Shown one piece after another: positions 36,042 to 60,432 of a stretch of 64,000 nt of DNA. The DNA lies in assembly GCA_030066085.1 (NCBI GenBank), contig JASJCI010000005.1:1-64000 (forward strand), given 5' to 3'. Under the pieces are notes generated by a model. It had not been told where the DNA came from, searched no databases, and worked only from the letters and a program-made list of their open reading frames with translations. How positions within the stretch are numbered: the first letter of the stretch is position 1; the number at the start of each line of letters is the position of its first letter. The position numbers and the translations under genes were made by a program. The stretch comes from Gammaproteobacteria bacterium. GTDB taxonomy: Bacteria > Pseudomonadota > Gammaproteobacteria > GCA-001735895.

Positions 36042-36050
36042 CGGGAATTA

Positions 36051-36695: not shown

Positions 36696-36727
36696 CTCGA
36701 GAGTCTCCGTCGTGATTGACTGCCGGA

Positions 36728-37012: not shown

Positions 37013-37013
37013 T

Positions 37014-43128: not shown

Positions 43129-44109
43129 CTAGCTTTCGCTTTCAGGCTCTTTGAATCCCGATGAATAGTGCACCTTTCCATGGTGGTCAATGACGATTGC
43201 GTCGAAACCCTCCAGGCTTTCGATCAGCGCGATACCCTCTACCGCACCCAATACAAAGAGAGTAGTAGATAAGGCGTCAGTTGTCATGGCATCCGGCCCG
43301 GTAACGGTTGCGCTCCAGCTGCCCTCGGCGGACTTGCCGGTTTTCGGGTTCAGGATGTGGTGCACGCGTTCGCCGTCGGCGAAGAAAAAACGCTCGTAGT
43401 CGCCCGAGGTCGACACCGCGGTGTCACTCAGCGGAACGCGTAACGCGATAGCTTCCGGATCGCGCGGGTGCTGGATGCCGATGACCCAGGGATGACCGCC
43501 GCGGTCGCCGATGATCCGGCTGTCGCCACCCGCGCTGAGCATCGCGCGACTGATGCCGCAGCTGGCGAGAGTCGCGACGCCGCGATCGACGGCGTAACCC
43601 TTGGCGATACCGCCGAGGTCGATGCGCACGCCCGCGTGGCGAAAGCGGATGCGATTGCCGTCGAGCTCGACGTGCCGGTAGTCGATCGCGGGCAGCGCGC
43701 GCGCGAGGGCTTCGTCGTCGGGCTGTTGCTTGTTGCGGTAGTCGTAGGCGTAGCCGACGCTGGCGTAGGTGATGTCGAAGGCGCCACCCGAAATATCCGA
43801 AAAATAGAGCGATTTTTCGATCAGGCCGGCGAGCTCGGGGCTGATTTCGAGGCTCGATACGGCCGCATCGGCGTTGATCCTGGAGATTTCGCTGGTCGCG
43901 ATGTAGGTGCTCATGAGCACCTCGATACGACGCAGTTCCTCGAACACCCTGTTGGCGCACTCAGCGGCGCGCGTGGCGTCGGCATGCCATGTATCGAGGC
44001 TTATGCGCGTGCCCATGATATCTCGCTGCGCATTATGCCATTCGGCCTGCACCCAGAAGGGCAGGCCGAATAACAGGATCAGCAAGACAAGACGCGCAGG
44101 CAAAGTCAT
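43129..44109 (-). CDS. apbE: FAD:protein FMN transferase (ApbE family)
   Basis: A 326-aa exported protein with signal peptide LVLLILLFGLPFWVQA but no lipobox, unlike many ApbE lipoproteins. The catalytic features are in place: DIMGTRIS near residue 31, SGGAFDITYASVG near 108, IDLGGIAKGYAVD near 167, LSAGGDSRIIGDRGG near 191, and the Mg-binding end TDALSTTLFVLG near 280. ApbE attaches FMN to a Ser/Thr of target proteins outside the cytoplasm. I see no target motif of the type DGxTGAT in the neighbouring proteins. Its location between c-type cytochrome-like genes and the TolQ cluster points to an envelope redox system. Confidence 0.9.
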   Translation of the reverse strand: MTLPARLVLLILLFGLPFWVQAEWHNAQRDIMGTRISLDTWHADATRAAECANRVFEELRRIEVLMSTYIATSEISRINADAAVSSLEISPELAGLIEKSLYFSDISGGAFDITYASVGYAYDYRNKQQPDDEALARALPAIDYRHVELDGNRIRFRHAGVRIDLGGIAKGYAVDRGVATLASCGISRAMLSAGGDSRIIGDRGGHPWVIGIQHPRDPEAIALRVPLSDTAVSTSGDYERFFFADGERVHHILNPKTGKSAEGSWSATVTGPDAMTTDALSTTLFVLGAVEGIALIESLEGFDAIVIDHHGKVHYSSGFKEPESES

Positions 44110-44155
44110 GTCGAACGGGTCCGACCCGTGGTTTTGATACGCAGGGCGTATCTTA

Positions 44156-45835
44156 TCAGGTTCTGATATCGCCGAACGAGATATATTGTGCCGGATTGTT
44201 GCCGAGCCCGTGGTTGGGGAACGCGTCCAGGAACGGCTGGATACCGCTATTCAGCATGCCGTTGATGGACATGTAGTTCAGCATGACCATGTTGACCAGC
44301 AGGTTGGGATTGTTGGCCGCCGGCGTGGACGAGGTCACCACCGAGGCGCCCGCGTTCATGTGCCCGATCTGGCGACTGCCGATCAGGCTGGGCGTGTTCC
44401 CGTTGGGCCGGAACAGGAGGAAGAACGACGCCGCCGTCGACGAATTGTCGCCGGTCCATTCACCCTTGCCGCGACCGCCAAGCGTCAGGTTCTCTCCGGC
44501 ACCCGTGCTTTGCGAGTCATCCGGCGTACCGTTACTGGACAGGGACCCGTCGCTGAACACGTAAATCATCAGCGGCGTATTGAGCAGCGCGGCGTACTGC
44601 AGGCAGGCGCCGATGCAGCGGCCGGCGCGCAGATCGCGGTTTTCGCCGCGAATGCGGGCGCCGCCGTGGTAATCGTAACCACCCATGGTGATACAGCCGC
44701 CGGCAGCGTAGCGATTGACGACCATTTTCATGACCGACGCCGTCTTGCGGAATTCGCCATCGTTGTTGAGTTCGGAAGCACTGAACGGCGCCAGTACGTT
44801 ACCACCGACAACGTCGCGGTTGATGTTCGGATCGAGCATCGGGTCCACCGGCACGCCGGCAAATCGATCGGCGATATCGGCGGCCTTGAGATAGCCGCAG
44901 CGCACCATGTCCTTGATGATGTCGTCGTTGGTCAGGCCGGTGGTGATGCCGGCCTGCATCTTCTTGTGCGATACGCGCGCCATGGATTCCATTACCGCGG
45001 TGACATCGCCGGCGTCGAGAATCGCGGTCAGGTCACCGACGTCGACCATGCCGGTCACGTCGCTCGGGCGATCGACCTTGGTCGGACGAAATTCCGGGTT
45101 GACGTACATCGCCGGCGCCATCGAGTTGCCGCCGGATACGCTGTTGCGCGAACCGATCAGGTCGACCACCGTGCCACGCACGCTGGGATCGGTCATGACC
45201 AGCGGGTAGAGCGGGTTGTGCGGATTGTTGCCGGTGTCGTTATCGGAGCGCGCCGGGATAATGGCGCCGTCGATGGCGGTAAAATTCGCCGGGTCGACTT
45301 TCTCGCGGATACCGAACAGCATGGCGCTGTCGGCATGGAAAGCGAGACCGAGTTCGGAGTTGGTGAAATCGTTGGTCGGGCTCGGATTGAGCAGGTCGCC
45401 GTTGGGACCCTCGGTGAGCCCGGTACTGTCCTGGCCCGGCAGCATGTCGCCGGGCAGGCCGATCTTGCTGTAGCCCGCGGTCGACAGTAAATCGAACTGC
45501 CCGCCCATGTCGCCGACCAGCACGTTGGAGCCGGAAATGTTGGCGCCGCCGGCCAGGTCGAAGCTGATGAACGGCACGTTGACGCCGGCACCGCCGCCGC
45601 CCAGCGGGCAATTGGCCAGTGAGCCGGCCAGTGCGTCGAGGTCCGGCGAGACCGCCGCCAGGGCTTCGTTCGGATTGGCGAACAGGCTCAGCCAGCTACC
45701 CGTTGCCGCCATCGCGCCGCCGGTCAGGAATCCCTGCTGGATAAACTCGCGCCGGGTCGTGGGGCGCTTGTGATCCTCGTGCAGCAGCGGCGCGTCGGGA
45801 TTTTCGAACTGTGGGTTCTTTTTGAATCTGGGCAT
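44156..45835 (-). CDS. Tat-exported DUF1501-like protein
   Basis: A 559-aa protein. The N-terminus has a twin-arginine signal (TTRREFIQQGFLTGGAMAAT, about residues 26-45), as in DUF1501 proteins. The body is Gly/Asn/Asp-rich and includes FDLAGGANISGSNVLVGDMG near 90 and GGCITMGGYDYHGGARIRGE near 380. Such proteins usually occur beside cytochrome-like DUF1588/1592 or PSD proteins, as here, and Tat export suggests folding with a cofactor or metal before transport. DUF1501 relatives resemble the alkaline-phosphatase superfamily, but I see no clear active site. It is 9 bases after the LamG gene. Activity is unknown. Confidence 0.72.
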   Translation of the reverse strand: MPRFKKNPQFENPDAPLLHEDHKRPTTRREFIQQGFLTGGAMAATGSWLSLFANPNEALAAVSPDLDALAGSLANCPLGGGGAGVNVPFISFDLAGGANISGSNVLVGDMGGQFDLLSTAGYSKIGLPGDMLPGQDSTGLTEGPNGDLLNPSPTNDFTNSELGLAFHADSAMLFGIREKVDPANFTAIDGAIIPARSDNDTGNNPHNPLYPLVMTDPSVRGTVVDLIGSRNSVSGGNSMAPAMYVNPEFRPTKVDRPSDVTGMVDVGDLTAILDAGDVTAVMESMARVSHKKMQAGITTGLTNDDIIKDMVRCGYLKAADIADRFAGVPVDPMLDPNINRDVVGGNVLAPFSASELNNDGEFRKTASVMKMVVNRYAAGGCITMGGYDYHGGARIRGENRDLRAGRCIGACLQYAALLNTPLMIYVFSDGSLSSNGTPDDSQSTGAGENLTLGGRGKGEWTGDNSSTAASFFLLFRPNGNTPSLIGSRQIGHMNAGASVVTSSTPAANNPNLLVNMVMLNYMSINGMLNSGIQPFLDAFPNHGLGNNPAQYISFGDIRT

Positions 45836-45844
45836 CAGTCTGTC

Positions 45845-48454
45845 CTATTGTACGATCATTACCGCGCCGCCGGTCACCGCGGCGCAAACCGCTTTGACGA
45901 TCTGGCGGGTTCTCGCAGCCGTATCGGTGTTCGACGGGCTGGCAAGCAGCTCCGTGATCAGGCTATCGTATTCGTCGCCGCTGGCCGCCGCCGGATCATC
46001 GAGATGCTGTTCCACGGTGGAACCGAGCATGTCGTGAATCGTGGCTTCGAGCGGTTGCGAAGTCAGGTTGTTGGCCGGCGTGATCTGGTCGACGTTCATG
46101 GCCGCGGTCAGGATCGGATCGATGACCTGCGCGCGCTTGGTTGCGTTGTTGAACGCGGTCAGGGAACCGGCGTTGAAATCGAAGCCGGGGAAATAAGCGG
46201 CTCTCGCGCCAGCGTCCTCTACCAGTTCACTGCAGGAGGTGAGCGCCAGCTGTGCTATCGCCATCTGGTGTGACGGCAGGAAGGCGTCGATCGCCTCGAC
46301 CGCCGGCAGCTGCTGGATGTACTCGTCGTACACCGCCTGCACCGTTGTATTGCCGGCATCACCGATCGGTACGCCGGTAATCTCGGAAATCGTCGAGTGG
46401 ATTTCCTCGAAGGTGCGCATGCCGATATCGGACGCGACCGCTTGCGGCGGGTCGGCGGGATCGGCCGGCGCCGGCGGCTGCGGGTCGTTGAACGTGTTGG
46501 ACTGGGCGCCGATAACCTCGAAGGTCAGGAAAAACTCGTCGCTTTCGCGACCCTTTTCGAGAGCGATGATCGTGCCCAGCGGCGACAGCAGCTGGCCCGT
46601 CGCCGGATCGTAGCTGCCGGCGTCGATGTTGACGTTCATGCTGGCGAAGGACTGGCCGGCCAGCGCCTGCTTGCCGTTGATGCCGATACGCATGCCCTGG
46701 ATGTTGAAGCCACCCGGGGTCCAGTCGGGATCGAGGTTGATGAAGGTCGGCTTGTCGAACAGGTAGCTGTAGCTGTCGAACTCCGATACCTCGAACATGA
46801 TGTAGGCGTCGTTGATACCGACGCGATGGCCGATGTAGAACAGCAGGTAATACTTCTCGCCGACACCGACGTCGAAGTTCTGCTGCACCTGGGCCGCCGT
46901 CAGCGCACGGTTGTGGATCGCGGCCATACGGACCTGGCCCATCCACGGACGGTTACCCGACACCTCGTTGCCGAGGATGAAGGCAAAGGTGTCGTTCCAG
47001 ACGTTCTGCACCGTGTTGGGGCCCGGGGTCGGCTCGGTGGTACCGGCTACCGCCTGGCCGTTGACGAAAATCTCGCGCCCGTTGATCGGGTGATAGTTGA
47101 CCACGACGTGCTGCAGGCTGGACTGCAGGACCTCGTTGTCGTTGCCATCGTCACTGGTGAACAGCGGTTCGCCGTTGGCGTCCGAATCCGTGGAGCGGTT
47201 GTAAAACTCGTAGTCGTACATGTCCTGTGCGAGGGTGAAGTTGCGCGCGGCATCGCCACCGGAGTAGGAAATGATATTGGCGTCTTCCTGGCTGACGTTG
47301 GCCGGCGTTATCCAGGCCTCGATCGCGTATTCGCGGGTCGTGCCCTCGATAAACTGGTGCAGCTTGTCGCTGGCAAGCGTGTTCGCCTGCGCGCGGCCGC
47401 CGGTGAAGTTGAGGCCGTAACCGGGCATGAAGGCGACACTGCCGATCAGGGTCAGGTCCACCGCGGGGTCGATACCCGAGGTATCGTAGGCGGTCAGGCC
47501 GCTGCCGGTCTTGAACTCCCACAGCGCCACCAGGTTGCTCTCGTGGCGGTTGCCGCCGGCGGCGACGATACCGTCGTCCATGGTCAGCGCCATGCTGGTG
47601 ATCAGGCTGGGATCCACCGGTGTCGGCTGGATGCCGTCGGCCCACAGCTGGATCGCGTTCTGCATGTCCAGCGCATCGTCCGGGCAGTTATCCCAGCAGT
47701 TGTGAAACTCGCTGCCGAGACGGACCACGAAACGCGAGTTGGACGGCGTGTCGATATCCATCTTGGACTTGGCCGCCTCGTATGCGCTGTTGACGTCGGC
47801 GTTGCCGAAGAACGGCGCGATCGGCAGCGGGTTGGCGGTTTCCTCGTGGCAACCCTGGCAGTTGTTGGTGCTGATGCCGGCCGCGGTGCCGATCAGGATC
47901 GGGTGCACGGTGTCGGCGAAGCTCCGGCCGTTGGTGCCGGGCGTGGTGGCCGTCGGCGGGAACGACTTGGCATCGCCGGGCGACTTGATCGTCGGCGCGG
48001 TTAGCTGGATCAGGCGCGCTGAAGTCACGGCCGAATCGGTCGCCCAGTTGGTGATCATCTGCTCGATGTTGGTGGCGCAGGCCGCGGTCGAGGCGAGCCA
48101 GCAATTGTGTCCGCTACCGACCTTGGTGACGAAAATCGAGCTTGCCGGGTCCTGCAGGTCGGCGTAGGCAATCGCCTCCGAGTAGGCGGCGTTGACGTCG
48201 CTGAAATCGACGAAGTAGGGCGCCTGGTCCGAACGGTGGCACTGGCCACAGCGGTTTTCTTCCTTGAGGAAGGTCCAGAAGTTGGTCTCGAACGACAGGA
48301 TGTCGGCGGTACGCGCCGGCGGTCCGTTGTAACCGGTGGAGACGTCGCTCAGGTCCGGGTTCGACGAGGTACCCACGCTGGAATCACAGGCGGCGAGCCA
48401 TGCGCCCAGCGCGAGGATGGTTAGCGTTTTAACAATGGAACGGTAATCGGTCAT
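45845..48454 (-). CDS. LamG-domain lipoprotein with two CxxCH cytochrome-like repeats
   Basis: An 869-aa lipoprotein (lipobox LAAC, cysteine 23). The start at 48454 has a GAGGGAG ribosome site; the longer frame lacks one. Two homologous segments follow. The first has CGQCH at 69-73 and the second CQGCH at 199-203, each followed some 40-50 residues later by a conserved GS-x(1-2)-HNCW and a further cysteine. Next comes a LamG/concanavalin-like domain (about 330-540), with ALEAWITP-type strand patterns such as EYAIEAWITPANVSQEDAN, and an extracellular-type C-terminus. Covalent haem at both CxxCH sites is predicted. It is likely at the outer membrane. Confidence 0.75.
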   Translation of the reverse strand: MTDYRSIVKTLTILALGAWLAACDSSVGTSSNPDLSDVSTGYNGPPARTADILSFETNFWTFLKEENRCGQCHRSDQAPYFVDFSDVNAAYSEAIAYADLQDPASSIFVTKVGSGHNCWLASTAACATNIEQMITNWATDSAVTSARLIQLTAPTIKSPGDAKSFPPTATTPGTNGRSFADTVHPILIGTAAGISTNNCQGCHEETANPLPIAPFFGNADVNSAYEAAKSKMDIDTPSNSRFVVRLGSEFHNCWDNCPDDALDMQNAIQLWADGIQPTPVDPSLITSMALTMDDGIVAAGGNRHESNLVALWEFKTGSGLTAYDTSGIDPAVDLTLIGSVAFMPGYGLNFTGGRAQANTLASDKLHQFIEGTTREYAIEAWITPANVSQEDANIISYSGGDAARNFTLAQDMYDYEFYNRSTDSDANGEPLFTSDDGNDNEVLQSSLQHVVVNYHPINGREIFVNGQAVAGTTEPTPGPNTVQNVWNDTFAFILGNEVSGNRPWMGQVRMAAIHNRALTAAQVQQNFDVGVGEKYYLLFYIGHRVGINDAYIMFEVSEFDSYSYLFDKPTFINLDPDWTPGGFNIQGMRIGINGKQALAGQSFASMNVNIDAGSYDPATGQLLSPLGTIIALEKGRESDEFFLTFEVIGAQSNTFNDPQPPAPADPADPPQAVASDIGMRTFEEIHSTISEITGVPIGDAGNTTVQAVYDEYIQQLPAVEAIDAFLPSHQMAIAQLALTSCSELVEDAGARAAYFPGFDFNAGSLTAFNNATKRAQVIDPILTAAMNVDQITPANNLTSQPLEATIHDMLGSTVEQHLDDPAAASGDEYDSLITELLASPSNTDTAARTRQIVKAVCAAVTGGAVMIVQ

Positions 48455-48456
48455 GA

Positions 48457-49737
48457 TCAACTCCCTCTGCAATACGCGGCGACGTCGGTGAAAACTTCAC
48501 GCATGTCGCCGTTGTAGCTGCCCATGAATGCGTCACGTATTGCGTTGCGTTGCGCGCGGTCGGCGCTCATGACGTTGGGATCGCGCAGGCAAATCGCCTT
48601 GAAAGCCTTGTCGACCTGGCACTGGGCAAAGGCCGTGCTGTTGGCCAGCTCGAGTCCCAGCTCCTTGGCGCCACGACCAACCGCGTTACCCTTGGTGTCG
48701 AGCGAGAGGCCGGCGTAGTTGTTCCAGCCGAGCAGCCAGTTCTGGCCGTTACGCCAGTAGTTGATCCAGGTGTCGTCGGTGGTTTCGTAGCCGAACTCGA
48801 AGTTGTTGGCGTTGATGTTGTGCTTGATCGCGACACCCGTCACCGGGTCGAACTCGGTGGGATCGCCGATATCCCGGTAAACCAGGCGACCATCGCTCTG
48901 GTCGTTGGTATAAACCCACTCGTAGTGGGCGAACGCACCCGACATGCCGTCCATGCCGGCGTGGCAGCCGACGCAGGTATTGAGAAAAATGCGGCTGTCG
49001 CCGCCCGGGCTGCGCGATACGTCGCGGCGCACGCGGTCAGGCGTGCGCGAGGTGTCTTTCAGCGGCTCGAGGTCGCTGCACATGTGGTTCATCATCGTGA
49101 AGCGGAACATCGCGCGGTTGGTGCCGTCGAAGAAAAACGCCATCGCCGCCGCGCGGGTAGTCATGACGCCGGCGGTGGCCGCCGCGGGCAGGCCGGTAAC
49201 CGAGCTCTGCGTCGTGCCCTGGAGAATGCCCGGGTTCGACAGGTCGCCGGCGATTGGGCCCAGGTCCTCGAGATCGCGGTAGTGGTTGTTGTTGCTGTTC
49301 GATACCGGCGGCAGCCCCGGGACGATACCGCGGTAGATGATATCGCCGTGCAGGATCTGGCGAAAATCGCCGCCGTCCCGGATCAGGCCGATAGCGGTCG
49401 CGGTGTAGTCGTTGAGATCGGTAAAGACCGTCTGCTCCTCGTTGGTCCAGGGCGCAATCCAGTTCTTCAACGTCACGTTGTAAAAGTACCGGGCGTTCGG
49501 GTTTTGCGCGGTGTCGATCGCGTACTCCGCCGCGGTCTTGCCGGATGGATCGGACAGGAGACGAGTCTCCATCGCGTCGATCACGGCATTGGTTGGCGTG
49601 ACGCCAGTCAGGCGCACGTGGATTCGATGGGCCTGGCGTCGTTCTTCGGCGCCGGCCATCACGGGCTGCACGTACGACTGCGCGACAACGGTCGCGATCA
49701 TCACCAGCGGCAGCGATAGCTTGCTAATCTTTCCCAT
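48457..49737 (-). CDS. Exported CxxCH protein, DUF1588/DUF1585-related
   Basis: A 426-aa protein with a signal peptide (LSLPLVMIATVVAQSYVQPVMA) and a single haem-binding motif CVGCH at residues 255-259. The motif is preceded by RTPDRVRRDVSRSPGGDSR and followed by AGMDGMSGAFAHYEW. This pattern recalls the C-terminal cytochrome part of DUF1588/1585 proteins, where a CxxCH is followed by M-D-x-x-G-x-A. It starts the minus-strand run: LamG protein (2-base gap), DUF1501-like protein, ApbE and the 201-aa protein. The family call is tentative; the haem motif and export are directly visible. Confidence 0.7.
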   Translation of the reverse strand: MGKISKLSLPLVMIATVVAQSYVQPVMAGAEERRQAHRIHVRLTGVTPTNAVIDAMETRLLSDPSGKTAAEYAIDTAQNPNARYFYNVTLKNWIAPWTNEEQTVFTDLNDYTATAIGLIRDGGDFRQILHGDIIYRGIVPGLPPVSNSNNNHYRDLEDLGPIAGDLSNPGILQGTTQSSVTGLPAAATAGVMTTRAAAMAFFFDGTNRAMFRFTMMNHMCSDLEPLKDTSRTPDRVRRDVSRSPGGDSRIFLNTCVGCHAGMDGMSGAFAHYEWVYTNDQSDGRLVYRDIGDPTEFDPVTGVAIKHNINANNFEFGYETTDDTWINYWRNGQNWLLGWNNYAGLSLDTKGNAVGRGAKELGLELANSTAFAQCQVDKAFKAICLRDPNVMSADRAQRNAIRDAFMGSYNGDMREVFTDVAAYCRGS

Positions 49738-50102
49738 GGAAATCCCCAGTTTGTCTCCTCGTCATCGCCGCGCAGTTGTTTCAGCGCCGTAATCAAGTTA
49801 ACCCCTAATCTAGCACAGGGATTAACCCCTGAATGCGAACCCGGCCCGGAATTTTTTCACAAAAGCCCAAATTACTGTTATCCCGTCCGATTCTGCTGAT
49901 AAGCTTTGCAAATACAGTATTCCAGTGCCATTCAGCTATATTTCTTCGAACCATATTTTACGGGACCTGACCAGTGGCTCGTATACCGTTCATACCGAAA
50001 AAACGACACTTGGTCAGAAACCGGAAGATTGGCGCTACATATAGAAGATAAACTCCGGCACTGGAGTTAAAGTGCATTGTCAAGATTGTTCAAAAGGTAA
50101 AA
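49738..50102. other. Divergent intergenic region with a direct repeat
   Basis: About 365 bases separate the cytochrome-like gene (minus) from the HzsA-related gene (plus) and must hold promoters for both runs. TTAACCCCT occurs twice as a direct repeat, at 49798-49806 and 49822-49830, 24 bases apart, so both copies lie on a similar helix face and could bind one regulator. The middle is AT-richer than the surroundings. No pair of hexamers is convincing enough to name as a promoter. Confidence 0.5.
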
Positions 50103-52874
50103 ATGAAGCACGTAACTGCCTCTAAAACCGCAAAAATGACCGCTACCGGGCCGCTGTCGCTGGCGGGCCTCAAGTGGCTCGGGCTGCTGATGCTGGCGGG
50201 CGCGCTCGTCGGCATCAAGGGCTGCGGTTCGTCGGGCGACGGAATCGATCCAGGCGTGGTCGAGATCCCGCTCGCCTACATCAATCGCCCGATCCCGCTC
50301 GACGACATGGGCGACCAGGTCAATGCCGACCTGCGTGAACCGCTGCTGTTCAGTGCCGGGGGCGACGTTTACCTGCAAACCACTTCGCAAGCCGGTTCGG
50401 ACGTCACCAATATCACCGCGGCGGTAACCGGCGGGCAGGGCGACGTCAAGGGGCTGAACTCTGATTTCGAGGGCAAAAAGCTGATTTTCTCGCTGCGCCT
50501 GTTCGATCCCGATCCGAACGACGATGACGTGCCGTCGTGGAATATCTACGAATACGAACTCGAGACCGCCACGCTACGCCGGATCATCACCGACGATATT
50601 ACCGCCGAGGCGGGTGACGATCTCTACCCGGCCTACCTGCCGGACGGCCGGATCGTGTTTACTTCCTCGCGCCAGACGCAGGCGCGGGAAATCCTGACCA
50701 ACGAACTGAAGCCGCAGTTCTCGGCGCTCGACGAGGACGAGGACGAAATCGCGCTGGTGCTGCACGTGATGAATCCGGACGGTTCCGCGCTGCGCCAGAT
50801 CTCCTTCAACCAGAGCCACGACCTGCAGCCGCAGGTGCTGGGTAGCAGTTTCAACGGCCAGGTCGTATTCAGCCGGTGGGACAATGCGGCCGGCAACAAT
50901 GAATTCAATATATACAAGGTCAATCCGGATGGCAGCGACCTCGAAATGCTGTACGGCTCGCGCAGCCACAACTACAAGGGTGTAAACGTACAGTTCACCG
51001 GCCTGCGCGAAATGCCGAATGGCAACATGCTGGCCATTGCCAAGCCGTTTACCGGCACCTTCGACGGTGGCGACATCGTCATCATCGATACCGCTCGCTT
51101 CGTCGAAAACGACAAGCCGATCTGGTCGCTGACCGGTTTATCGGGTCCGGCACAGCGCGCCGCGACCGTGACCGACGTGGCCCTCAACGGCGACTTTCCG
51201 CTGCAGGGGCGCTACAGCTCGGCTTTCCCGCTGCAGGACGGGTCCGATCGCCTGCTGGTCAGCAAATCAACCTGCCAGCTCGATGTCAATGGCACGATCC
51301 GGCCCTGTATCGAACCCTACGTCGACGATCCGAATGCCCAGGAATCTTCGCCTTATTACTCGATCTGGCTGTATAACCTGAGCCAGAACACCGAGAAACC
51401 GCTGGTCCTGGTGCAGCCCGGCCGGGTCATCACCGAGGCCATCACGATGCTGCCGATAGCGCGCCAGAACGTAATCCGGGATCGCGCCGCTACCGGCGTG
51501 CTCAACGGCGCCTGGATCACCGAAAACGTCGGCGTGGTCAACGTGCGCAGCGTCTACGATTTTGGTGACAACAGCTTCAGCGGTGGATTCCTCAATGTTC
51601 CCGTAACCGCGCCGGGGATTACCGCGGTAGAGCAGCTGGCGGATCCGGTCAATGCCACCGCCGCGCAGCGCGCGGCGCGGTTCGTGCGTTTCGTCAAGCC
51701 GGTTGCGATTCCCGACCCGGACGATCCCGAGGTGCCCACCGCGCTGGATCTCGACGACGATGCGTTCGGTCCGATACGCAATCGCGGTATGCGCGAAATC
51801 GTCGGTTACGCGCCGATCGAACCGGACGGCTCGATCAAGGTCAAGGTCCCGGCAAACACGCCGCTGGGTATCGAGGTGCTCGACGGCGAGGGCCGTCGGA
51901 TCGGCCCGCCGCACAATAACTGGCTCCAGGTACAGCCGGGCGACCAGCTCAACTGTGTTGGCTGTCACGACCTGGTCAACGGCGGTGCGCCGCCCGAGGT
52001 GCACAGCCGCGCCGATGGGCATGCGCCGACGATCAACAGCGGTCTGCCGCTGGCCCTGCAGTTCGTCAATACCCTGATTCCGGGCAACATGTCGCCCAAC
52101 CCCTACTGGGGTGATTTTGGTCAGACCATGGCCGAAGTTCGTTTCGATCGTGTCAGCCTGACGCTGCCGCTGCCGACGCCACAGCCGCAGCTGAACATAG
52201 ACCTCGTCTACGACGACTACTGGACCGACCCGGCGGCACGCGCGCCCGATGCCAGCTATGCCTACGAATACGCCAATCTGGATGTCTCGGTGCCGGCGCC
52301 GGCCAACGCCTTCTGCTTTCCGTGGCGCTTCAACTGCCGCGCCACGATCAACTACCCCGAGCAGATCCACCCGATCTGGGCCGTCGACCGCGGGGTCGAC
52401 GCGGACATGAACGGTGTCGGCGACGATACCTGCACCCAGTGTCACACCACCCAGGACGCCATGGGTAACGATCGCGTCGCCGATGGCCAGCTAGACCTGA
52501 CCGATGGCGTTTCCGACCAGAACAACGATCACCTCAAGTCCTACCGCGAGCTGCTGTTCGTCGACCAGGAAGAAGTGCTCAACGTCACCACGCTCGAAGA
52601 CCGGCTGGTACCCGACGGCATGGGCGGCACCACTACCGTCGACGTACAGCCGAGCATGGAGCCCGACGGCGCGCGTAGCAGCTACTTCATCGAAAAGCTG
52701 ACCGAAACCGAGCTGGATGCGCCGCGAACCCTGTCGACGCCTGGCAGCGACCCGAATTACGTCGACCACACGGGTTTCCTGACGCCCGACGAGTTGAAGC
52801 TGATCGGGGAATGGCTGGACCTGGGCGCGCAGAACTACAACGACCCGTTTAATACCTCCGCACCGCAAAATTAA
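50103..52874 (+). CDS. HzsA-related beta-propeller protein with two CxxCH motifs
   Basis: A 923-aa exported protein with a hydrophobic signal ending GIKGC, so probably a lipoprotein at C41 although Lys at -2 is unusual. It has propeller-type blades of the TolB/PD40 kind (YPAYLPDGRIVFTSSRQ near 178, LHVMNPDGSALRQISFN near 220, NGQVVFSRWD near 252). Haem motifs are CVGCH (618-622) and CTQCH (777-781). The layout resembles proteins annotated as related to the hydrazine synthase alpha subunit, which are widespread outside anammox bacteria and of unknown activity. Hydrazine synthesis is not implied. It heads the plus-strand run of envelope genes. Confidence 0.72.
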   Translation: MKHVTASKTAKMTATGPLSLAGLKWLGLLMLAGALVGIKGCGSSGDGIDPGVVEIPLAYINRPIPLDDMGDQVNADLREPLLFSAGGDVYLQTTSQAGSDVTNITAAVTGGQGDVKGLNSDFEGKKLIFSLRLFDPDPNDDDVPSWNIYEYELETATLRRIITDDITAEAGDDLYPAYLPDGRIVFTSSRQTQAREILTNELKPQFSALDEDEDEIALVLHVMNPDGSALRQISFNQSHDLQPQVLGSSFNGQVVFSRWDNAAGNNEFNIYKVNPDGSDLEMLYGSRSHNYKGVNVQFTGLREMPNGNMLAIAKPFTGTFDGGDIVIIDTARFVENDKPIWSLTGLSGPAQRAATVTDVALNGDFPLQGRYSSAFPLQDGSDRLLVSKSTCQLDVNGTIRPCIEPYVDDPNAQESSPYYSIWLYNLSQNTEKPLVLVQPGRVITEAITMLPIARQNVIRDRAATGVLNGAWITENVGVVNVRSVYDFGDNSFSGGFLNVPVTAPGITAVEQLADPVNATAAQRAARFVRFVKPVAIPDPDDPEVPTALDLDDDAFGPIRNRGMREIVGYAPIEPDGSIKVKVPANTPLGIEVLDGEGRRIGPPHNNWLQVQPGDQLNCVGCHDLVNGGAPPEVHSRADGHAPTINSGLPLALQFVNTLIPGNMSPNPYWGDFGQTMAEVRFDRVSLTLPLPTPQPQLNIDLVYDDYWTDPAARAPDASYAYEYANLDVSVPAPANAFCFPWRFNCRATINYPEQIHPIWAVDRGVDADMNGVGDDTCTQCHTTQDAMGNDRVADGQLDLTDGVSDQNNDHLKSYRELLFVDQEEVLNVTTLEDRLVPDGMGGTTTVDVQPSMEPDGARSSYFIEKLTETELDAPRTLSTPGSDPNYVDHTGFLTPDELKLIGEWLDLGAQNYNDPFNTSAPQN

Positions 52875-53130
52875 ATTAGTGGTCCTCGCGCTATTTTCAG
52901 CTACGCTCAGTGTATCTGTGCGAGCGCAACGCAGGCGTGTTGCGCGGGCTGCGGCTTGCCCTTGCCGGGTAATACGCCGCGAAGCCGAGTCCGCGCAGAC
53001 TCTTCCCAGGGGCCGCAACATGATCGTGTTCGAACCGCATTGCAGTCCCTGGAGAGGGCGGGCCTTCCCCCGCGGACTGCGCCGTGCCGAAAACGATTGT
53101 GCTGTGGCTGGGCATTGCTGAAAATACCGC
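52875..53130. other. Intergenic gap with a perfect 7-8-7 inverted repeat
   Basis: GCGCAAC (52924-52930) and GTTGCGC (52939-52945) flank an 8-base loop soon after the HzsA-related stop. No T run follows, so a rho-independent terminator is unlikely. A stabilising or processing hairpin is possible. Smaller paired sequences (GAGTC/GACTC) follow near 52990. No open frame of note was found; the gap probably also carries a promoter for the barrel genes. Confidence 0.4.
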
Positions 53131-53964
53131 ATGGACCACGATGGAAACACGAGCTTGAGATATCTGACGGGGATATTGCTGTCCGCTTTCGTGTGTCTGT
53201 CGATTGCCGTGCACGGGTCGGCCCGCGCCCAGAACCAGGATTTCGAGGAGACCCGCGAGCTGACCGAGACCGACGAAGCCGACGACCGCTTGCGGGTCAA
53301 GATTGCCGATCCCTTCATCGAGCTGCATACCGGGCCGGGCTCGGGCTACCCGATCTTTTTCGTGATCGATCGCGGCACCGAGGTGCGGATCCTGCGACGC
53401 AAGACGGACTGGTTCCGCATCGAAACCGACGACGGCAAAAGCGGCTGGGCCAGTCGCTCGCAAATGCGGCGCACGCTGCTGCCGAGCGGCGAGAGGCTCC
53501 CGATCACCGACAATACCGAGGACGATTTTATCGTTCGCGACTGGGTGGTCGGCTTCACCGGTGGAGAATTCGAATCGGCGCCGGTATTTACCCTGTTCGG
53601 CGCCTATTCCTTCACCGAGAACCTGGCAGGCGAGGTACACTACGGGCAATCCATCGGCGACGATTCGAACGCGACCTTCTGGAAACTCAACCTGGTCATG
53701 CAGCCGCTGCCGGATCTCAAGTATTCACCCTATCTGACGCTTGGCGTCGGCAAGATCGATGTTGAGCCGAGCGCTACGCTTATCGCGCCCGAGGACGATG
53801 AAAACGAGCTGGCCCAGGTCGGTCTCGGCATTCAGCGTTACATCAGCCGCAGTTTCATGTTCCGTGCCGAGGTAAATGAGTACGTGATCTTCTCGTCCAC
53901 CACGGCCAACGACGATAACGAGGAAGTATTCGAGTGGAAACTAGGTTTCGCAGTATTTTTCTAG
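53131..53964 (+). CDS. SH3-domain outer-membrane beta-barrel protein
   Basis: A 277-aa protein with a signal peptide (LLSAFVCLSIAVHGSARA) and a bacterial SH3 domain (about residues 54-112, with IELHTGPGSGYPIFFVIDRG and WFRIETDDGKSGWASR). A C-terminal half of alternating amphipathic strands ends in FAVFF. The terminal Phe is the usual BAM-recognition signal of outer-membrane barrels. The SH3 domain may contact peptidoglycan or a partner protein. The next gene starts inside its last 31 bases. Confidence 0.78.
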   Translation: MDHDGNTSLRYLTGILLSAFVCLSIAVHGSARAQNQDFEETRELTETDEADDRLRVKIADPFIELHTGPGSGYPIFFVIDRGTEVRILRRKTDWFRIETDDGKSGWASRSQMRRTLLPSGERLPITDNTEDDFIVRDWVVGFTGGEFESAPVFTLFGAYSFTENLAGEVHYGQSIGDDSNATFWKLNLVMQPLPDLKYSPYLTLGVGKIDVEPSATLIAPEDDENELAQVGLGIQRYISRSFMFRAEVNEYVIFSSTTANDDNEEVFEWKLGFAVFF

Positions 53965-54596
53965 CCGCGGGGATGCTGCTCGCGCTGTTTCCGGCGGGCC
54001 AGGTGCTGGCTCAAAGCGACGAGACGGACGAGACGGACGAGACCACGCTGATCGAGCCACAGATCGAACGCGAGGAGTTCGATGAATCGCTGATCGAGTC
54101 CGATGACTTCGAAATTGCCGTGTATGCCGGCTTTCTCGCGATCGAGAATTTCGATACCGATGTCGTGGTAGGCGTCAAACTGGGCTACCACATCTCGGAA
54201 GATTTTTTCGTCCAGGGCGCTTTCGGCATGGCCGACGCGGGCGAGACCAGCTTCGAACGCCTGACCGGCGGCGCACCGCTGCTGTCGAGCGACGAGCGCG
54301 AACTCGAATACTACCTGGTCACGCTCGGATTTAATCTGTTCCCGGGGGAGGCATTCGTCACCGATTCGACTACATTTAATAATGTGTTTTATCTTGCCGC
54401 GGGTGCCGGCACGACCGATTTCGCCGGCGACGACCGGTTTACCATTGCTTACGGGGTGGGTTACCGTACCCTGTTCGCGGACGCATTCAGCCTGGATGTC
54501 GAGATGCGCAACCTGATCTGGGAAATGGACATATTCGGTGAGACCGAGGACACCAACAACCTCGAGTTCACGGTAGCACTAAACCTGTTTTTCTAG
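53934..54596 (+). CDS. Small outer-membrane beta-barrel protein
   Basis: A 220-aa protein starting with GTG, with signal peptide IFLAAGMLLALFPAGQVLA, an acidic segment and about eight amphipathic strands ending in VALNLFF. The barrel half resembles the C-terminal half of the preceding protein (KLGYHISEDFFVQGAF against AYSFTENLAGEVHYG), which suggests an old duplication. It overlaps the previous gene by 31 bases, and the next gene starts 10 bases later. Substrate or partner is unknown. Confidence 0.75.
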   Translation: METRFRSIFLAAGMLLALFPAGQVLAQSDETDETDETTLIEPQIEREEFDESLIESDDFEIAVYAGFLAIENFDTDVVVGVKLGYHISEDFFVQGAFGMADAGETSFERLTGGAPLLSSDERELEYYLVTLGFNLFPGEAFVTDSTTFNNVFYLAAGAGTTDFAGDDRFTIAYGVGYRTLFADAFSLDVEMRNLIWEMDIFGETEDTNNLEFTVALNLFF

Positions 54597-54606
54597 GAGA
54601 ACGACT

Positions 54607-55119
54607 ATGATGGATAAAATTCGATACATGCTGCCTCGACTGCTGCTGGCGGGTACAATTGCCATTGGCGGTATCGGTACTGCCACCGCCGCTGGCGTCA
54701 AGGGCCCGGCTCCCAATTTCACGCTCAAATCGCTCACCGGTAAAAACCTGAAGCTCAGCGAGATGCGCGGCAACGTTGTCATGATCAATTTCTGGGCGTC
54801 CTGGTGCGGCCCCTGTCGCCAGGAAATGCCGCTGCTGAACGATCTGCACAACAAGTACGAACCGCTCGGTTTTACCGTCCTCGGCGTCAACGTCGAGGAA
54901 AACTCATCCGATGCGCGTGGTTTTCTCGGCAATACGCCGGTCGATTTCCCGGTACTGCTTGATAACACCAACAAGGTCAGCAAAATGTACGACGTGGTAG
55001 CGATGCCGACCACGGTACTGGTGGACCGCGATGGAAACATGCGCTACCTGCACAAGGGTTACAAGCCCGGCGACGAAAAGAAGTACCGGCAGATGGTCAA
55101 GAAACTGATTCGCGAGTAA
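54607..55119 (+). CDS. TlpA-family thioredoxin-fold protein
   Basis: A 170-aa periplasmic thiol protein with an uncleaved or cleaved N-terminal hydrophobic segment (about residues 9-29) and active site WCGPCRQE near 63-70. The cis-proline region is AMPTTVLVD. It immediately precedes the DUF4266 and DUF3570 genes. TlpA plus DUF4266 plus DUF3570, often near an ApbE gene, is a recurrent set as far as I recall, and an apbE gene lies 10 kb away on the other strand. It may keep cysteines of its partners, for example the Cys-containing DUF4266 tail, reduced. Confidence 0.87.
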   Translation: MMDKIRYMLPRLLLAGTIAIGGIGTATAAGVKGPAPNFTLKSLTGKNLKLSEMRGNVVMINFWASWCGPCRQEMPLLNDLHNKYEPLGFTVLGVNVEENSSDARGFLGNTPVDFPVLLDNTNKVSKMYDVVAMPTTVLVDRDGNMRYLHKGYKPGDEKKYRQMVKKLIRE

Positions 55120-55125
55120 GCATCC

Positions 55126-55350
55126 ATGAAACAGCAAACAACTTTTATCCTTTGCGGTCTCGCCCTGCTGCTCGCTGGCTGCGCTACCGAACCCTGGGTC
55201 AAGCCCTACGAACGGGCCAACCTGGCCGATCCGATCATGAGTTTCACCCGCGATCCGGTGTCGGCCAACTACCTGCACCACGTTTACGATTCGCGCGAAG
55301 GTTCGCGCGGCGCGGGCGTGGTGTCCGGCGGGGGCTGCGGCTGTAACTGA
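55126..55350 (+). CDS. DUF4266 lipoprotein
   Basis: A 74-aa lipoprotein with lipobox LLAGC (Cys 19). The mature part carries WVKPYERANLADPIM and HVYDSREGSRGAGVVSGGG, which match the DUF4266 pattern, and it ends GGGCGCN. The two terminal cysteines are a striking feature that could bind a metal or form disulfides. It starts 6 bases after the TlpA-like stop and ends 21 bases before DUF3570. Confidence 0.85.
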   Translation: MKQQTTFILCGLALLLAGCATEPWVKPYERANLADPIMSFTRDPVSANYLHHVYDSREGSRGAGVVSGGGCGCN

Positions 55351-55371
55351 TACGCCCCAGGTGCTCCACCC

Positions 55372-56490
55372 ATGCGTTACCTCGGCCTGATTCTGTTGCT
55401 GGCGCTGGCATGTCGACATGCCGGCGCCGCGGTGTTGCCCGAAGAGCGCGCCGACCTGCTGTATCACAGTTATGACGGCGGCGGCGCGACCATCGACGGG
55501 CCCGCGGTGCTGGTGCGCAAGAACCTCGGCGACAGCGTTTCGGTGGGCCTGAATCACTATGTCGACAACGTCACCAGTGCGACCATCGACGTCGAGGTCA
55601 GCGGCGCGAGCGAATACACGGAAACTCGCGAGGAAAATTCGGTTGCGCTCGATTACCTGACCAACAAGACGACGGTCAGCGTCGGCTACGGGGTCAGCGA
55701 GGAGAACGACTACGATGCAACCTCGTATAGTCTCGGGATCTCGCAGGACATGTTCGGTGACCTGACCACGGTGTCGATCAGCTTCGCGTTCGGCGATAAC
55801 GAAGTCGGCGACAGTACTGACGATACCTTCGAGGAAGACAACGAATCGCGCCGCTACCGGGTTTCGCTGTCGCAAATCCTGACCAAGAACTTCGTCATGG
55901 CGTTCGCATTCGAGACCATCACCGACGAGGGCTTTCTCAATAATCCATACCGCTTCGTGCGTTTCCGGGATGGCGGAGGCTACAGCCTCGGTCCCGAAAA
56001 ATATCCCAACACGCGGACCAGTAACGCGTTCGCGATCAGGGGCAATTATTTTCTCGAGCAGCGCGCCGCGCTACATGCCGGGGTGCGGGTGTTCGACGAC
56101 AACTGGGGTATCGATGCCACCACGTTCGAAATCGGTTACACGATGCCATACGGCGATGACTGGATTATCGAGACTTCTGCCCGTTTCTACACCCAAACCG
56201 AGGCCGAGTTCTACAGCGACCTGTTTCCGTTCCAGGATTCGCAGACCTACTACGCGCGCGACAAGGAATTGAGCGAATTCGACAGCACGACTATAGGCGT
56301 CGGCGCGACTTACGAGTTCGGCCGCGCCTGGTCGGCGATCGAACGCGGCAGCGTCGGCGTCAACGTCGATTTCATCCAGTTCGATTACGATAACTTCCGC
56401 GACCTGACCAAGGGCGGGCCGGTGGGCGAGGAGCCGCTGTACGAATTCGACGCCACCGTCATTCGTGCGCTCGCGTCGATCCGTTTCTAG
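55372..56490 (+). CDS. DUF3570 outer-membrane barrel protein
   Basis: A 372-aa protein with a signal peptide (LGLILLLALACRHAGA) and the DUF3570 opening ERADLLYHSYDGGGATIDGP. Many amphipathic strands follow, ending in VIRALASIRF with terminal Phe. DUF3570 proteins are predicted outer-membrane barrels found with DUF4266 and TlpA. Their function has not been established to my knowledge. A role as porin for an envelope redox or metal system is inference. The TpsB gene starts within its last 26 bases. Confidence 0.87.
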   Translation: MRYLGLILLLALACRHAGAAVLPEERADLLYHSYDGGGATIDGPAVLVRKNLGDSVSVGLNHYVDNVTSATIDVEVSGASEYTETREENSVALDYLTNKTTVSVGYGVSEENDYDATSYSLGISQDMFGDLTTVSISFAFGDNEVGDSTDDTFEEDNESRRYRVSLSQILTKNFVMAFAFETITDEGFLNNPYRFVRFRDGGGYSLGPEKYPNTRTSNAFAIRGNYFLEQRAALHAGVRVFDDNWGIDATTFEIGYTMPYGDDWIIETSARFYTQTEAEFYSDLFPFQDSQTYYARDKELSEFDSTTIGVGATYEFGRAWSAIERGSVGVNVDFIQFDYDNFRDLTKGGPVGEEPLYEFDATVIRALASIRF

Positions 56491-58048
56491 TCAAAGCTGC
56501 CGCTTCGCAGCGGCCCTGCTGTGCCTGCTCGGTCCCGGGTTCCCGGCATTCGCGGCCGGCGACTGCACGCTGCTCGAGCGGGTCGAGATCAGCGAAAAGC
56601 GGATCCTGGGCGCCGCCGAGCGTGACGCGCTGGTAGCACCGTTTGTTGGCAGCTGCATCGATGGCGACCTGCTGCAACGCCTGCTGGCCGCTCTTTCAAA
56701 CCGCTATATCGAGCGCGGGTACGTCACCACCCGTCCGTACCTGCGAGAGCAGGATATCAGCGACGGCGCGGTCGAGATCGATGTTGTTCTCGGCACTGTC
56801 GAGGCGATCGTAGACGCGGACAGCGGCTTGCCGCGAAGGCGGCTCGACGCGGCCTTCCGCTTTCGGGGAGACCTGCTGAATCTGCGACAACTGGAGGATG
56901 CGCTGGAAACCCTGCAGCGGGTCCAGTCGGTCAGTGCAAGTTTCGAGATCCGCCCCGGCTCCGTTCCCGGCGCCAGCATCGTGGTGATAGACATCGATGA
57001 ACAGGATTCGCTGCGCATCGAGGCCGGCGTCAATCTGCAGACCGATCGCGACGAGCAGCTCAGCCTGCGGCTGATGCTGGACAACCCGCTCGAAATCAAC
57101 GACGTGCTGGAGTTGCGCTACAACGACGGTGAAGTCCGCGAAACCCTGCAGAGCGATCGCAGCCATGAAATCACCTATTCGTTCGCCCTCGGCGAATTCG
57201 GCGTGTCGCTGGGCCGCAGCGATATCGAGTTCGAACAGCGGCTGCAGGGCATCAACGAAAGTTTCCTCTCCAGCGGCGATACCGTCACCGATCGGCTGCG
57301 CGTGGACAAGACGGTCTTTCGCGGCCAGCGGCAGCGATTCATCGTCGCGTTCACGCTCGAACTCGAGGATACCGACAGTTTTTTCGAAGGCGAGCGTATC
57401 GACGTGTCGAGCTACCGCACCAGCCAGGCCCAGCTCGAACTGCAGCAGCTGTGGCTGGCCGACTGGGGTCAGCTGAACAACCGTTACGCCTGGCAGCAGG
57501 GGCTCGATTCGTGGGGAGCACGCGACGACGATTACTACACCCTCGAGAACGGTTTCGAAAACGAGGCCCGCCTGCAGTTCGACAAGTTCGTTCTCGACAG
57601 CAACCTGCTGTTTTACCTCGGGCGTTCGCCATGGGACGCCGCGCTGCGGCTGTACCTGCAGCACACCGACGACATTCTGTTTGCCAGCGACCAGCTCAGC
57701 CTCGGCAGTCCCTACACGGTGCGTGGCTACCCCGCGGCCCTCAGTGGCAGTAATGCCGGTTACCTGCGTATCGATATGATCCGGCGTATCAGGCGGGCCG
57801 ACCGAAACCTGGACCGCGATCGGCTACTCAAGCGTTTCGATTTCACCATCGGCCTGGATTATGGCGAGGTCAAATGCGAGATCGATAATCCCGACGTGTG
57901 CGGCGATATCTATTCACTCGGTGCCGGCATCGCGATTACCGACGCCAATTTCAGCGGCCGCGTGGTGTGGGGTCATCCGTTGAAGGAGCTCGAGGATGGC
58001 GTCGGTGACGAAGACCAGTTTTTCCTCGATCTGCGCTGGAGCCTGTGA
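56465..58048 (+). CDS. Two-partner secretion transporter (ShlB/FhaC/TpsB family)
   Basis: A 527-aa outer-membrane transporter. The GTG start at 56465 overlaps the DUF3570 stop. A signal region (FAAALLCLLGPGFPAFAAG) is followed by two POTRA domains (about residues 35-190, with YIERGYVTTRPYLREQDISD), then a 16-strand barrel with the conserved VRGY loop motif at SPYTVRGYPAALSGS. It ends LRWSL. Family members export large TpsA proteins, but no TpsA gene lies beside it. It could act on a remote substrate or belong to the envelope system upstream. Confidence 0.87.
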   Translation: MRSRRSVSSQSCRFAAALLCLLGPGFPAFAAGDCTLLERVEISEKRILGAAERDALVAPFVGSCIDGDLLQRLLAALSNRYIERGYVTTRPYLREQDISDGAVEIDVVLGTVEAIVDADSGLPRRRLDAAFRFRGDLLNLRQLEDALETLQRVQSVSASFEIRPGSVPGASIVVIDIDEQDSLRIEAGVNLQTDRDEQLSLRLMLDNPLEINDVLELRYNDGEVRETLQSDRSHEITYSFALGEFGVSLGRSDIEFEQRLQGINESFLSSGDTVTDRLRVDKTVFRGQRQRFIVAFTLELEDTDSFFEGERIDVSSYRTSQAQLELQQLWLADWGQLNNRYAWQQGLDSWGARDDDYYTLENGFENEARLQFDKFVLDSNLLFYLGRSPWDAALRLYLQHTDDILFASDQLSLGSPYTVRGYPAALSGSNAGYLRIDMIRRIRRADRNLDRDRLLKRFDFTIGLDYGEVKCEIDNPDVCGDIYSLGAGIAITDANFSGRVVWGHPLKELEDGVGDEDQFFLDLRWSL

Positions 58049-58068: not shown

Positions 58069-59364
58069 CTACAGCTCTCTTTCGGTGACGTCTTCCTGCG
58101 AGTCGAGTGCCTGCAGTTCGTCGCGCGCGACGGCTTCGGCGTACTCGAGCGAATCGGGTGCGATATATTCGGCGATCGGTGTGCCGATGGGGCCGGCTAC
58201 CAGGGTGGACTGGTCTTCGACCGCAACCCCCGCGCGTGCGCCGATCCGAATCAGCGTGAACAGCAGGATGATCGCGAAGATTCCGGCGATGCCCCAGAAG
58301 TAGAAGTCGACGTCGAGCAGGTCCATGAAAAAGGAGATCGTTACCGGGCCCGTCATCGAGCCGATGCCGGCGGCCATGACCAGCGCGCCGCTGGCGGCAA
58401 CGATTTGCTGCGGTTCGAGCCGATCGTTGGCGTAGGCGATACAGACCGAGTACATCGGCATCGCCGCTCCGCCGATCAGTGCGGCCAGCAGGTAAAACGA
58501 CAGTGCACCCTGCGGCAGGGCCAGGATGACGAGGCAGGAGGCGATCGAGATCAGCGACAGCGCCGCCATTACTCCCCGCCGGCCGACGCGGTCGGAGATG
58601 TAGCCGACCGGCCACTGCGTGAACAGGCTGCCGACCATGAAGCAGGCCATGAAGATCGATACGGCCTTGACGTCGGTCAGCGCCGCCGCGCCGTAAACCG
58701 CGCCGAGTCCAAAAATGGTGCCGTGCGCGGCGCCGGTCAGGCAGGTTCCGATGACCGCCAGCGGCGAGGCGCGATACAGGTCCCGCATCGACAGCTTGGA
58801 CGAGGTGGCGAAGGCCGGCGCGGGCTTGACGGTCAGCAGAATCGGAATCAGGCCGAAAGAAATGATCACCGACGCGAAGATGAACAGGTCGATGGTTTCC
58901 GGGCCGGCGAGGTTGACCAGTAACTGGCCGGCGGCTATGCCGCCGGTCACGATGACCATGTAAACCGACAGCATCTTGCCGCGTGTTTCGTTGCTGGCGC
59001 GGTCGTTGAGCCAGCTCTCGGTGACCACGTAGAAGCCGGCGAAACAGATACCGGTGATTACGCGCATCAGCCACCAGACTACGGGCTCGATGTATACGCC
59101 GTGGAACAGGATCGATATCGACGCCAGTGACGCGAGCGCGGAGAACACGCGGATGTGGCCGACCCGCTGCACCAGGATCGGTGCCAGTAGCGAGCCGCCG
59201 AACAGGCCGACGAAATAACCCGACATCAACACCCCGGTGGTAAAGGTCGAAAAGCCCTCGATCGATGCGCGCACGCCGAGCAGCGTGCTCTGCAAACCGA
59301 GGGCGAGCATCATGAAGCCGATGCCGAGCAGAATGGCCCAGGAGCTACCGAGATCTTTCCACAT
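58069..59364 (-). CDS. MFS transporter (YcaD-like)
   Basis: A 431-aa inner-membrane protein with 12 predicted helices. The loop VGYISDRVGRRGVMAAL after helix 6 is the MFS signature (G-x3-D-R-x-G-R-R), and the N-terminal part includes FTTGVLMSGYFVGLFGG. The C-terminal 35 residues are hydrophilic and acidic. Its gene converges with TpsB with 20 bases between stops and no visible terminator. Close to an amine-catabolism-like locus, it may take up or extrude the relevant compound, but the substrate is unknown. Confidence 0.85.
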   Translation of the reverse strand: MWKDLGSSWAILLGIGFMMLALGLQSTLLGVRASIEGFSTFTTGVLMSGYFVGLFGGSLLAPILVQRVGHIRVFSALASLASISILFHGVYIEPVVWWLMRVITGICFAGFYVVTESWLNDRASNETRGKMLSVYMVIVTGGIAAGQLLVNLAGPETIDLFIFASVIISFGLIPILLTVKPAPAFATSSKLSMRDLYRASPLAVIGTCLTGAAHGTIFGLGAVYGAAALTDVKAVSIFMACFMVGSLFTQWPVGYISDRVGRRGVMAALSLISIASCLVILALPQGALSFYLLAALIGGAAMPMYSVCIAYANDRLEPQQIVAASGALVMAAGIGSMTGPVTISFFMDLLDVDFYFWGIAGIFAIILLFTLIRIGARAGVAVEDQSTLVAGPIGTPIAEYIAPDSLEYAEAVARDELQALDSQEDVTEREL

Positions 59365-59437
59365 GAGATGCTTCCCGCGGGCATCGGATGACTGAAAACG
59401 GACGGAGTCTAGTTGAGACCCCGCGCTCCGGCAATTG

Positions 59438-60247: not shown

Positions 60248-60376
60248 GCACGCAAGGTAGCGCCGATCGCGGCCCGATGCCAGTGACTTTTTTACCGCGC
60301 CAGCCATGGCGCCGCGCTCGCAAAAGTGTTTACTTAAGTCAACAGACTTGTTCCGGAAAAACACCCGTGACACTGA

Positions 60377-60405: not shown

Positions 60406-60432
60406 CGCCTGACTATTGTCGTGGAGGCCGTG

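Follow-up and report, generated by a model that had tools for sequence, protein, structure and literature searches.

The locus examined here lies on a 64,000-nucleotide stretch of gammaproteobacterial DNA (hereafter the window, to which all coordinates refer) and comprises two head-to-head gene runs, a large block conserved in marine Gammaproteobacteria. In it, outer-membrane barrels, haem lipoproteins, and a set of genes for flavin attachment stand together with a putative proton-driven envelope motor of the family known from myxobacterial gliding. The original prediction set its limits at 43129-58048 and saw in it an envelope redox and secretion locus. These limits are too short on the minus side, where the run continues without a gap past the ApbE gene to 34092, and the Glt/Agl-type motor half had been missed. 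With this half added, what had looked like a redox cluster reads as a machine coupled to a motor. Judged from gene content and order across genomes, the genes at 34092-56490, without the adjoining TpsB gene, almost certainly form a single functional unit.

All of the open reading frames named in the original prediction are in place, and its labels for ApbE, the HzsA-related protein, TlpA, DUF4266, DUF3570, TpsB, LamG, and the barrels are borne out by Pfam or NCBIfam matches. Leftward from the divergent intergenic region (49738-50102), the minus strand encodes a 426-amino acid (aa) exported protein (48457-49737), a LamG lipoprotein (45845-48454; Laminin_G_3, 63 bits), a 559-aa protein exported by the twin-arginine translocation (Tat) pathway (44156-45835), and ApbE, the FAD (flavin adenine dinucleotide):protein FMN (flavin mononucleotide) transferase (43129-44109; PF02424, 268 bits). 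The LamG gene had been listed as an open reading frame at 45845-48472, but its start is likely the ATG at 48454. Rightward, the plus strand begins with an HzsA-like haem lipoprotein (50103-52874) that has a beta-propeller, an HZS_alpha middle domain (PF18582, 57 bits), and two CxxCH motifs. The locus holds five CxxCH motifs as predicted, one in 48457-49737, two in 45845-48472, and two in 50103-52874, and these counts are nearly invariant in related loci: one in 86/86 homologues of the 426-aa protein, two in 89/92 LamG proteins, and two in 84/87 HzsA-like proteins. Lipobox-like sequences occur in most homologues of the HzsA-like, LamG, and DUF4266 proteins and of two tetratricopeptide-repeat (TPR) proteins of 223 and 946 aa, including 84 of 99 for LamG and 47 of 53 for the 223-aa protein.

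The Tat-exported protein had been called DUF1501-like. Its export route stands, with a twin-arginine signal in 95/97 homologues, but the family label is not supported: no Pfam or NCBIfam match to DUF1501 (PF07394) was found, and hhalign comparison with true DUF1501 proteins aligned the signal peptide only. Four cysteines, at 76, 313, 407, and 411, are invariant (alignment A4). None of 10 members tested had any Pfam match, and the AlphaFold2 (AF2) model is of very low confidence (mean predicted local distance difference test score, pLDDT, 38). The 426-aa protein shows distant similarity to DUF1585/PSD2, with PF07624 matched by 7/12 homologues and not by the window member. Proteins of the PSCyt/PSD type with LamG-type modules have been linked to carbohydrate use in Verrucomicrobia (PMC5615132); such planctomycete-type cytochrome clusters resemble the present locus in that haem proteins bearing PSD-like and LamG modules are exported, but the 426-aa protein is only weakly similar, with no match for the window member, and the other partners differ. 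A search for solved relatives returned nothing meaningful for the Tat-exported protein, the 426-aa protein, or the 201-aa protein p201 described below.

Downstream of the HzsA-like gene, the plus strand encodes a protein with an SH3 domain and an outer-membrane barrel (53131-53964; SH3_3, 47 bits), a second barrel (53934-54596; OMP_myx_plus, TIGR04565, 144 bits against a cut-off of 60), a TlpA/ResA-type thiol-disulfide oxidoreductase (54607-55119; Redoxin, 108 bits), a DUF4266 lipoprotein (55126-55350; PF14086, 78 bits), and a DUF3570 barrel that is the candidate FMN carrier (55372-56490; PF12094, 138 bits). The SH3 barrel is conserved, and its OMP_b-brl match (28.1 bits) falls slightly below the cut-off of 28.7; it also has a partial OMP_myx_plus match under the cut-off. 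With TpsB these make four barrels (three or four had been predicted). The AF2 model of DUF3570 is a 16-strand barrel (pLDDT 83) whose best matches in the PDB are all transmembrane barrels.

ApbE, DUF3570, DUF4266, and a thioredoxin-like protein are the same four genes as in the flavinylation module of Meheust et al. (2021, PMC8238504), who showed that the DUF3570 protein of Chlorobium luteolum is flavinylated and noted the CxC of DUF4266. The main text of that paper, however, contains no Glt-type motor, HzsA-like protein, or LamG or Tat partners, and most DUF3570 proteins found here have one variant site rather than two canonical ones. The window DUF3570 carries an ApbE-type site, D65-N-V-T-S-A-T71, and nearly all DUF3570 proteins of the system have D-x-x-[ST]-[SGA]-A-[ST] at the position homologous to the VDxLTGA[ST] of stand-alone paralogues. 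The middle residue of this variant is Ser in 57 cases, Gly in 18, and Ala in 4 (n=79, with some overlapping loci, so that rows are not all independent). A pair of conserved canonical [ST]GA[ST] motifs was not found, and any canonical motif occurs in 11 of 40 full-length system proteins. The stand-alone DUF3570 paralogues of the same genomes carry VDxLTGA[ST] or a close form, with the motif in 12/13. Relatives (L070-L074, L077-L084) carry such a second, stand-alone TlpA-DUF4266-DUF3570-ApbE cluster, whose DUF3570 has canonical ApbE sites and is only about 20-28% identical to that of the system. The DUF4266 tail is GGGCGCN in all 15 homologues displayed and GGCGCN in the window.

Full-length ApbE proteins of the system score about 370-580 on a system-ApbE profile, against 205-232 for other ApbEs. 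In two lineages, G122/G231 and G057, DUF3570 has lost the site (E-S-I-R-G-L-P, E-Q-I-S-G-L-P, and E-Q-V-N-D-D-S), and here ApbE scores reach only 205-232. In G057 (L214, about 10619-11900) DUF4266 is apparently fused to the N-terminus of DUF3570, and the CxC tail and the ApbE site are both lost. Because the site has been lost in two independent lineages that lack the system subtype of ApbE, DUF3570 is supported as its substrate, and it is probably flavinylated by this enzyme. A different substrate for ApbE within the locus is not supported, since none of the other families conserves a D-x-x-[ST]-G-[AV]-[ST] site. We infer that FMN is carried on the Ser-variant site. In the AF2 barrel, this site is at the end of strand 3, beside a loop, and loop lengths suggest that this would be the outer end.

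The missed half follows ApbE on the same strand and consists, in order, of p201, three TPR proteins, a 94-aa protein, one ExbB/TolQ-type protein, two ExbD/TolR-type proteins, and a TonB-like protein. The exported p201 (42502-43107; profile A6), which serves as a marker of this core, has no Pfam or NCBIfam match above cut-off. The TPR proteins are an exported protein of about 670 aa (40500-42521; TPR_16), with its start re-set to an in-frame ATG near 42521; a large lipoprotein of 946 aa (37663-40503; TPR_6, YfiO, lipobox) with a distant PorW/SprE match; and a GltE-like lipoprotein of 223 aa (37014-37685; TPR Pfam). The small exported 94-aa protein (36728-37012) has no family match, and its position is conserved in nearly all Glt-type cores seen. 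The proton channel of the MotA/TolQ/ExbB family is AglR-like (36051-36695; TolQ, 73 bits, under the equivalog cut-off) and is followed in order by two AglQ/AglS-like proteins, the first (35550-36041) with TolR/ExbD matches and the second (35039-35530) with a weak TolR match and a conserved position beside ExbB. The TonB/GltG-like protein (34092-35039; TonB_C) ends in an AgmX/PglI domain (NF033768, 78.6 bits, cut-off 40). All of these genes at 34092-42521 are conserved across the loci compared.

By its predicted proteins, this layout is that of a Glt/Agl core: a single run encodes a TolQ-type protein, a pair of TolR-type proteins, a protein of the TonB/PglI type, and three TPR proteins that are exported, as are GltC, GltD, and GltE (counted by TPR domains, not by one-to-one orthology). 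Differences from the described cores are that the GltE and GltG equivalog models are matched only partially, the 223-aa lipoprotein scoring 41.6 bits against a cut-off of 225 and the TonB/PglI-type protein, which lacks the FHA domain of GltG, 54.7 bits against 650, and that the core is joined here to DUF3570, ApbE, TlpA, and DUF4266, to OMP_myx barrels, and to haem lipoproteins. In Myxococcus, AglRQS-Nfs carries surface polymers (PMC3858216), and in Gammaproteobacteria that do not glide the function of the core was called unknown, with a basal transport machinery suggested (Luciano 2011, PMC3169522; Wartel 2013, PMC3858216).

Related loci were compared with the window proteins by tblastn, and a profile of the Tat-exported protein was scanned against a collection of species genomes, where at least 595 stretches matched and 557 were confirmed. 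Gene counts come from the 64 loci with a full upstream flank, 58 of which have the divergent haem, barrel, and flavin block, including loci from Alteromonas, Colwellia, Shewanella, and Marinobacter. Counts were 63 for the 426-aa CxxCH protein, 64 for LamG, 59 for the HzsA-like protein, 58 for each of the SH3 and OMP_myx barrels, 48 for TlpA, 56 for DUF4266, 57 for DUF3570, and 0 for TpsB. Within the genus and in other genera of the family the set is complete and its divergent order unchanged, and G054, from another family, has kept every gene in a changed order, with ApbE and the Glt core after DUF3570. The Glt-type core also directly follows DUF3570 in Alteromonas, Shewanella, Marinobacter, Colwellia, and Arsukibacterium. 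Woeseiaceae have a second locus, which holds the Glt core, ApbE, and TlpA; the first lacks TlpA, so that a single set of parts is divided between the two.

In a class-wide sample of 232 genomes from 186 genera, p201 was found in 33 of 34 genomes with the Tat-exported protein and in 20 of 198 without it, mostly as weaker matches (Fisher p 5e-25, with no correction for kinship). By hand count, both genes lie at most 25 kilobases (kb) apart on one contig in 20 of the 33, and all 30 named genomes with the Tat-exported protein also have p201. Nine genomes of the window's own family lack all three of the HzsA-like protein, the Tat-exported protein, and p201. Only one Tat-positive genome in the class-wide sample, G074, lacks p201; it has neither DUF4266 nor DUF3570, and its HzsA-like gene (L056, 13438-15327) is truncated and broken into two frames, as would be expected of a decaying copy of the system. 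Taken together, these loci show at the level of gene content that the parts have been passed on as a set across much of Gammaproteobacteria, and the functional unity that the original prediction had proposed from adjacency and shared export now has behind it synteny over many families, the rearranged but complete G054, the redistribution in Woeseiaceae, and the co-occurrence across the class.

Two further carriers stand apart. The Gamma 3 endosymbiont of Olavius algarvensis, a gutless-worm symbiont (L094), has the system with several genes in pieces, which may be assembly errors, and a metagenome-assembled genome labelled Rhodospirillales (L156) carries the trio of LamG, Tat-exported, and 426-aa proteins (the haem trio), which may reflect mislabelling, contamination, or transfer.

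Natural variants separate a constant part from additions. Three genomes (G174, G203, and G290) have ApbE, an HzsA-like protein with three CxxCH motifs, both barrels, TlpA, DUF4266, DUF3570, and the Glt core, and lack the haem trio. G122 and G231 have DUF3570, the barrel or barrels, and the Glt core; the stretch read contained no TlpA, DUF4266, or ApbE, and an HzsA-like protein was seen in G122. G057 has the barrels, TlpA, and the DUF4266-DUF3570 fusion, with no HzsA-like protein in the stretch read. On account of these variants, the barrels, DUF3570, and the Glt core are the most constant part, and the haem trio and the flavin set are add-ons.

The best explanation of the whole, though one put forward tentatively, would be a proton-driven outer-membrane machine that assembles or moves a flavin- and haem-bearing surface complex. 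An AglRQS/TolQR-like motor of ExbB and two ExbD proteins, driven by protons, would act on an assembly in the outer membrane, composed of the DUF3570 barrel and two barrels of the OMP_myx type, with the TonB/PglI-type protein and the TPR lipoproteins as links. ApbE would attach FMN to DUF3570, in the window most likely at Thr71, and TlpA would reduce the CxC tail of DUF4266, which would act as thiol partner to the flavin-bearing barrel. A complex of the haem lipoproteins (HzsA-like and LamG) with the 426-aa CxxCH protein and the Tat-exported protein may be assembled, moved, or presented at the cell surface by the motor, and the electrons of this complex would pass through the flavin barrel. That assembling, moving, or presenting a redox complex is the job of the motor is itself a guarded proposal, held with rather less than even confidence. 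The original suggestion, electron movement or the building of a surface complex with bound cofactors, remains a reasonable inference.

Several observations weigh against such a machine. The haem trio is dispensable in G174, G203, and G290, and the flavin set in G122 and G231, so that neither is the sole purpose of the system. Ser replaces the Gly of the ApbE motif in most system DUF3570 proteins, and in a model protein the change of Gly to Ala alone halves flavinylation (PMC12052999). All genomes checked have an ApbE of some subtype, even those in which the site is lost. Redox-free Glt-type cores also occur in Gammaproteobacteria and may have arisen where the redox set was lost. In a tree of the large TPR protein these fall into three separate groups among redox-linked cores, which suggests that the redox linkage is old in Gammaproteobacteria, as far as a single gene with unassessed support at deep nodes can tell. 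Their neighbours, which include a molybdopterin oxidoreductase, alginate lyase, LptD, and pyruvate kinase among others, show no pattern that hints at a cargo. A broader reading, somewhat less likely than not, is that the usual role of the Glt/Agl core in Gammaproteobacteria is the proton-driven assembly or working of a surface complex of flavin barrel and haem lipoproteins, with redox-free cores as later derivatives. Examples of redox-free cores are at L067-L069, L208-L210, and L217-L219, where the neighbouring genes are unrelated.

Among other explanations, a surface-polymer machine, in which the Glt-type core would move or export a polysaccharide as Agl-Nfs does in Myxococcus while its oxidation, cross-linking, or binding would fall to the haem, flavin, and LamG proteins, is unlikely but deserves weight, given that the known cargo of the family is a glycan (PMC3858216), that a LamG domain is present, and that the verrucomicrobial PSCyt/PSD proteins with LamG-type modules are tied to carbohydrate use (PMC5615132); yet a polysaccharide synthesis or export gene was never a conserved neighbour in the loci examined, and the LamG trio is absent from some otherwise complete systems. 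Less probable still is a respiratory conduit, in which TlpA, DUF4266, the flavin-bearing DUF3570, and the haem lipoproteins would deliver electrons to an acceptor outside the cell, with the motor serving only to hold the conduit in position. Meheust et al. (PMC8238504) proposed electron flow from DsbD and thioredoxin to flavin for their module, and the site at the end of strand 3 beside a loop fits this, but five haems are few by the standard of multihaem conduits, the flavin site is absent in G122 and G231, which retain barrels and motor, and known conduits need no dedicated motor of about nine proteins.

That the Glt-type core, flavin module, and haem cluster are merely adjacent, independent neighbours is very improbable and largely refuted. 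Flavin clusters and redox-free cores do also occur alone, but the union is conserved over many families despite altered order, parts are shared between loci in Woeseiaceae, and losses are joint, while the stand-alone flavin clusters are distant paralogues. The idea that the locus encodes a hydrazine-synthase-like nitrogen enzyme with accessory proteins can hardly be entertained, and as a claim of membership it is refuted. The HzsA-like protein does share the propeller, HZS_alpha domain, and two CxxCH motifs with the alpha subunit of hydrazine synthase (PDB 5c2v chain A, E 7.5e-13), but the homology is confined to short stretches and the protein is here a lipoprotein. In hydrazine synthase a tyrosine four residues past the first CxxCH is the proximal ligand of haem alpha-I (PMC12607021); this ligand, Tyr591, is not conserved here, which excludes the enzyme. 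Among the genes of the block no homologue of HzsB or HzsC (the beta and gamma subunits) was identified, a genome-wide search not having been made.

If the proton-driven machine is real, a redox complex of the outer membrane would be a consumer of proton-motive force. The flavin module and the Glt/Agl core have each been published, and to that extent the system, which had been predicted to be undescribed, is known in its ApbE, TlpA, DUF4266, and DUF3570 part (PMC8238504). No description of a stable union of the two with haem lipoproteins turned up in the open-licence papers searched (main texts without supplements), in which only the two halves appear. A core known since 2011 from non-gliding Gammaproteobacteria without a function thereby gains a concrete, testable role, DUF3570 and DUF4266 gain a physiological setting, and culturable members of Shewanella, Alteromonas, Marinobacter, and Colwellia carry the locus, for example Shewanella metallivivens and Marinobacter sp. 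BW6.

The original prediction also raised the question whether transcription is divergent from 49738-50102. The divergent orientation is retained in 58 of 59 loci, but promoter-like matches within the region are at chance level (5 found against 4.2 expected), so that a divergent promoter rests solely on the conserved orientation. TpsB (56465-58048), which overlaps the end of DUF3570 and has the ShlB barrel (163 bits) and POTRA domains (POTRA_2) of two-partner secretion, had been counted as a component and is rejected as a member of the unit: it is limited to the genus and occurs in none of the 64 well-flanked loci. It is also missing from G029. Beyond the TonB gene, 31629-34092 encodes a second TlpA-like protein and a GNAT acetyltransferase, found in the same place in several loci of the genus (L033, L041, L061). 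On the other side, at 58069-61956, a major facilitator superfamily (MFS) transporter, a phosphonate-type binding protein, and a trimethylamine methyltransferase (MTTB) adjoin the system, as they do in L032 and L047.

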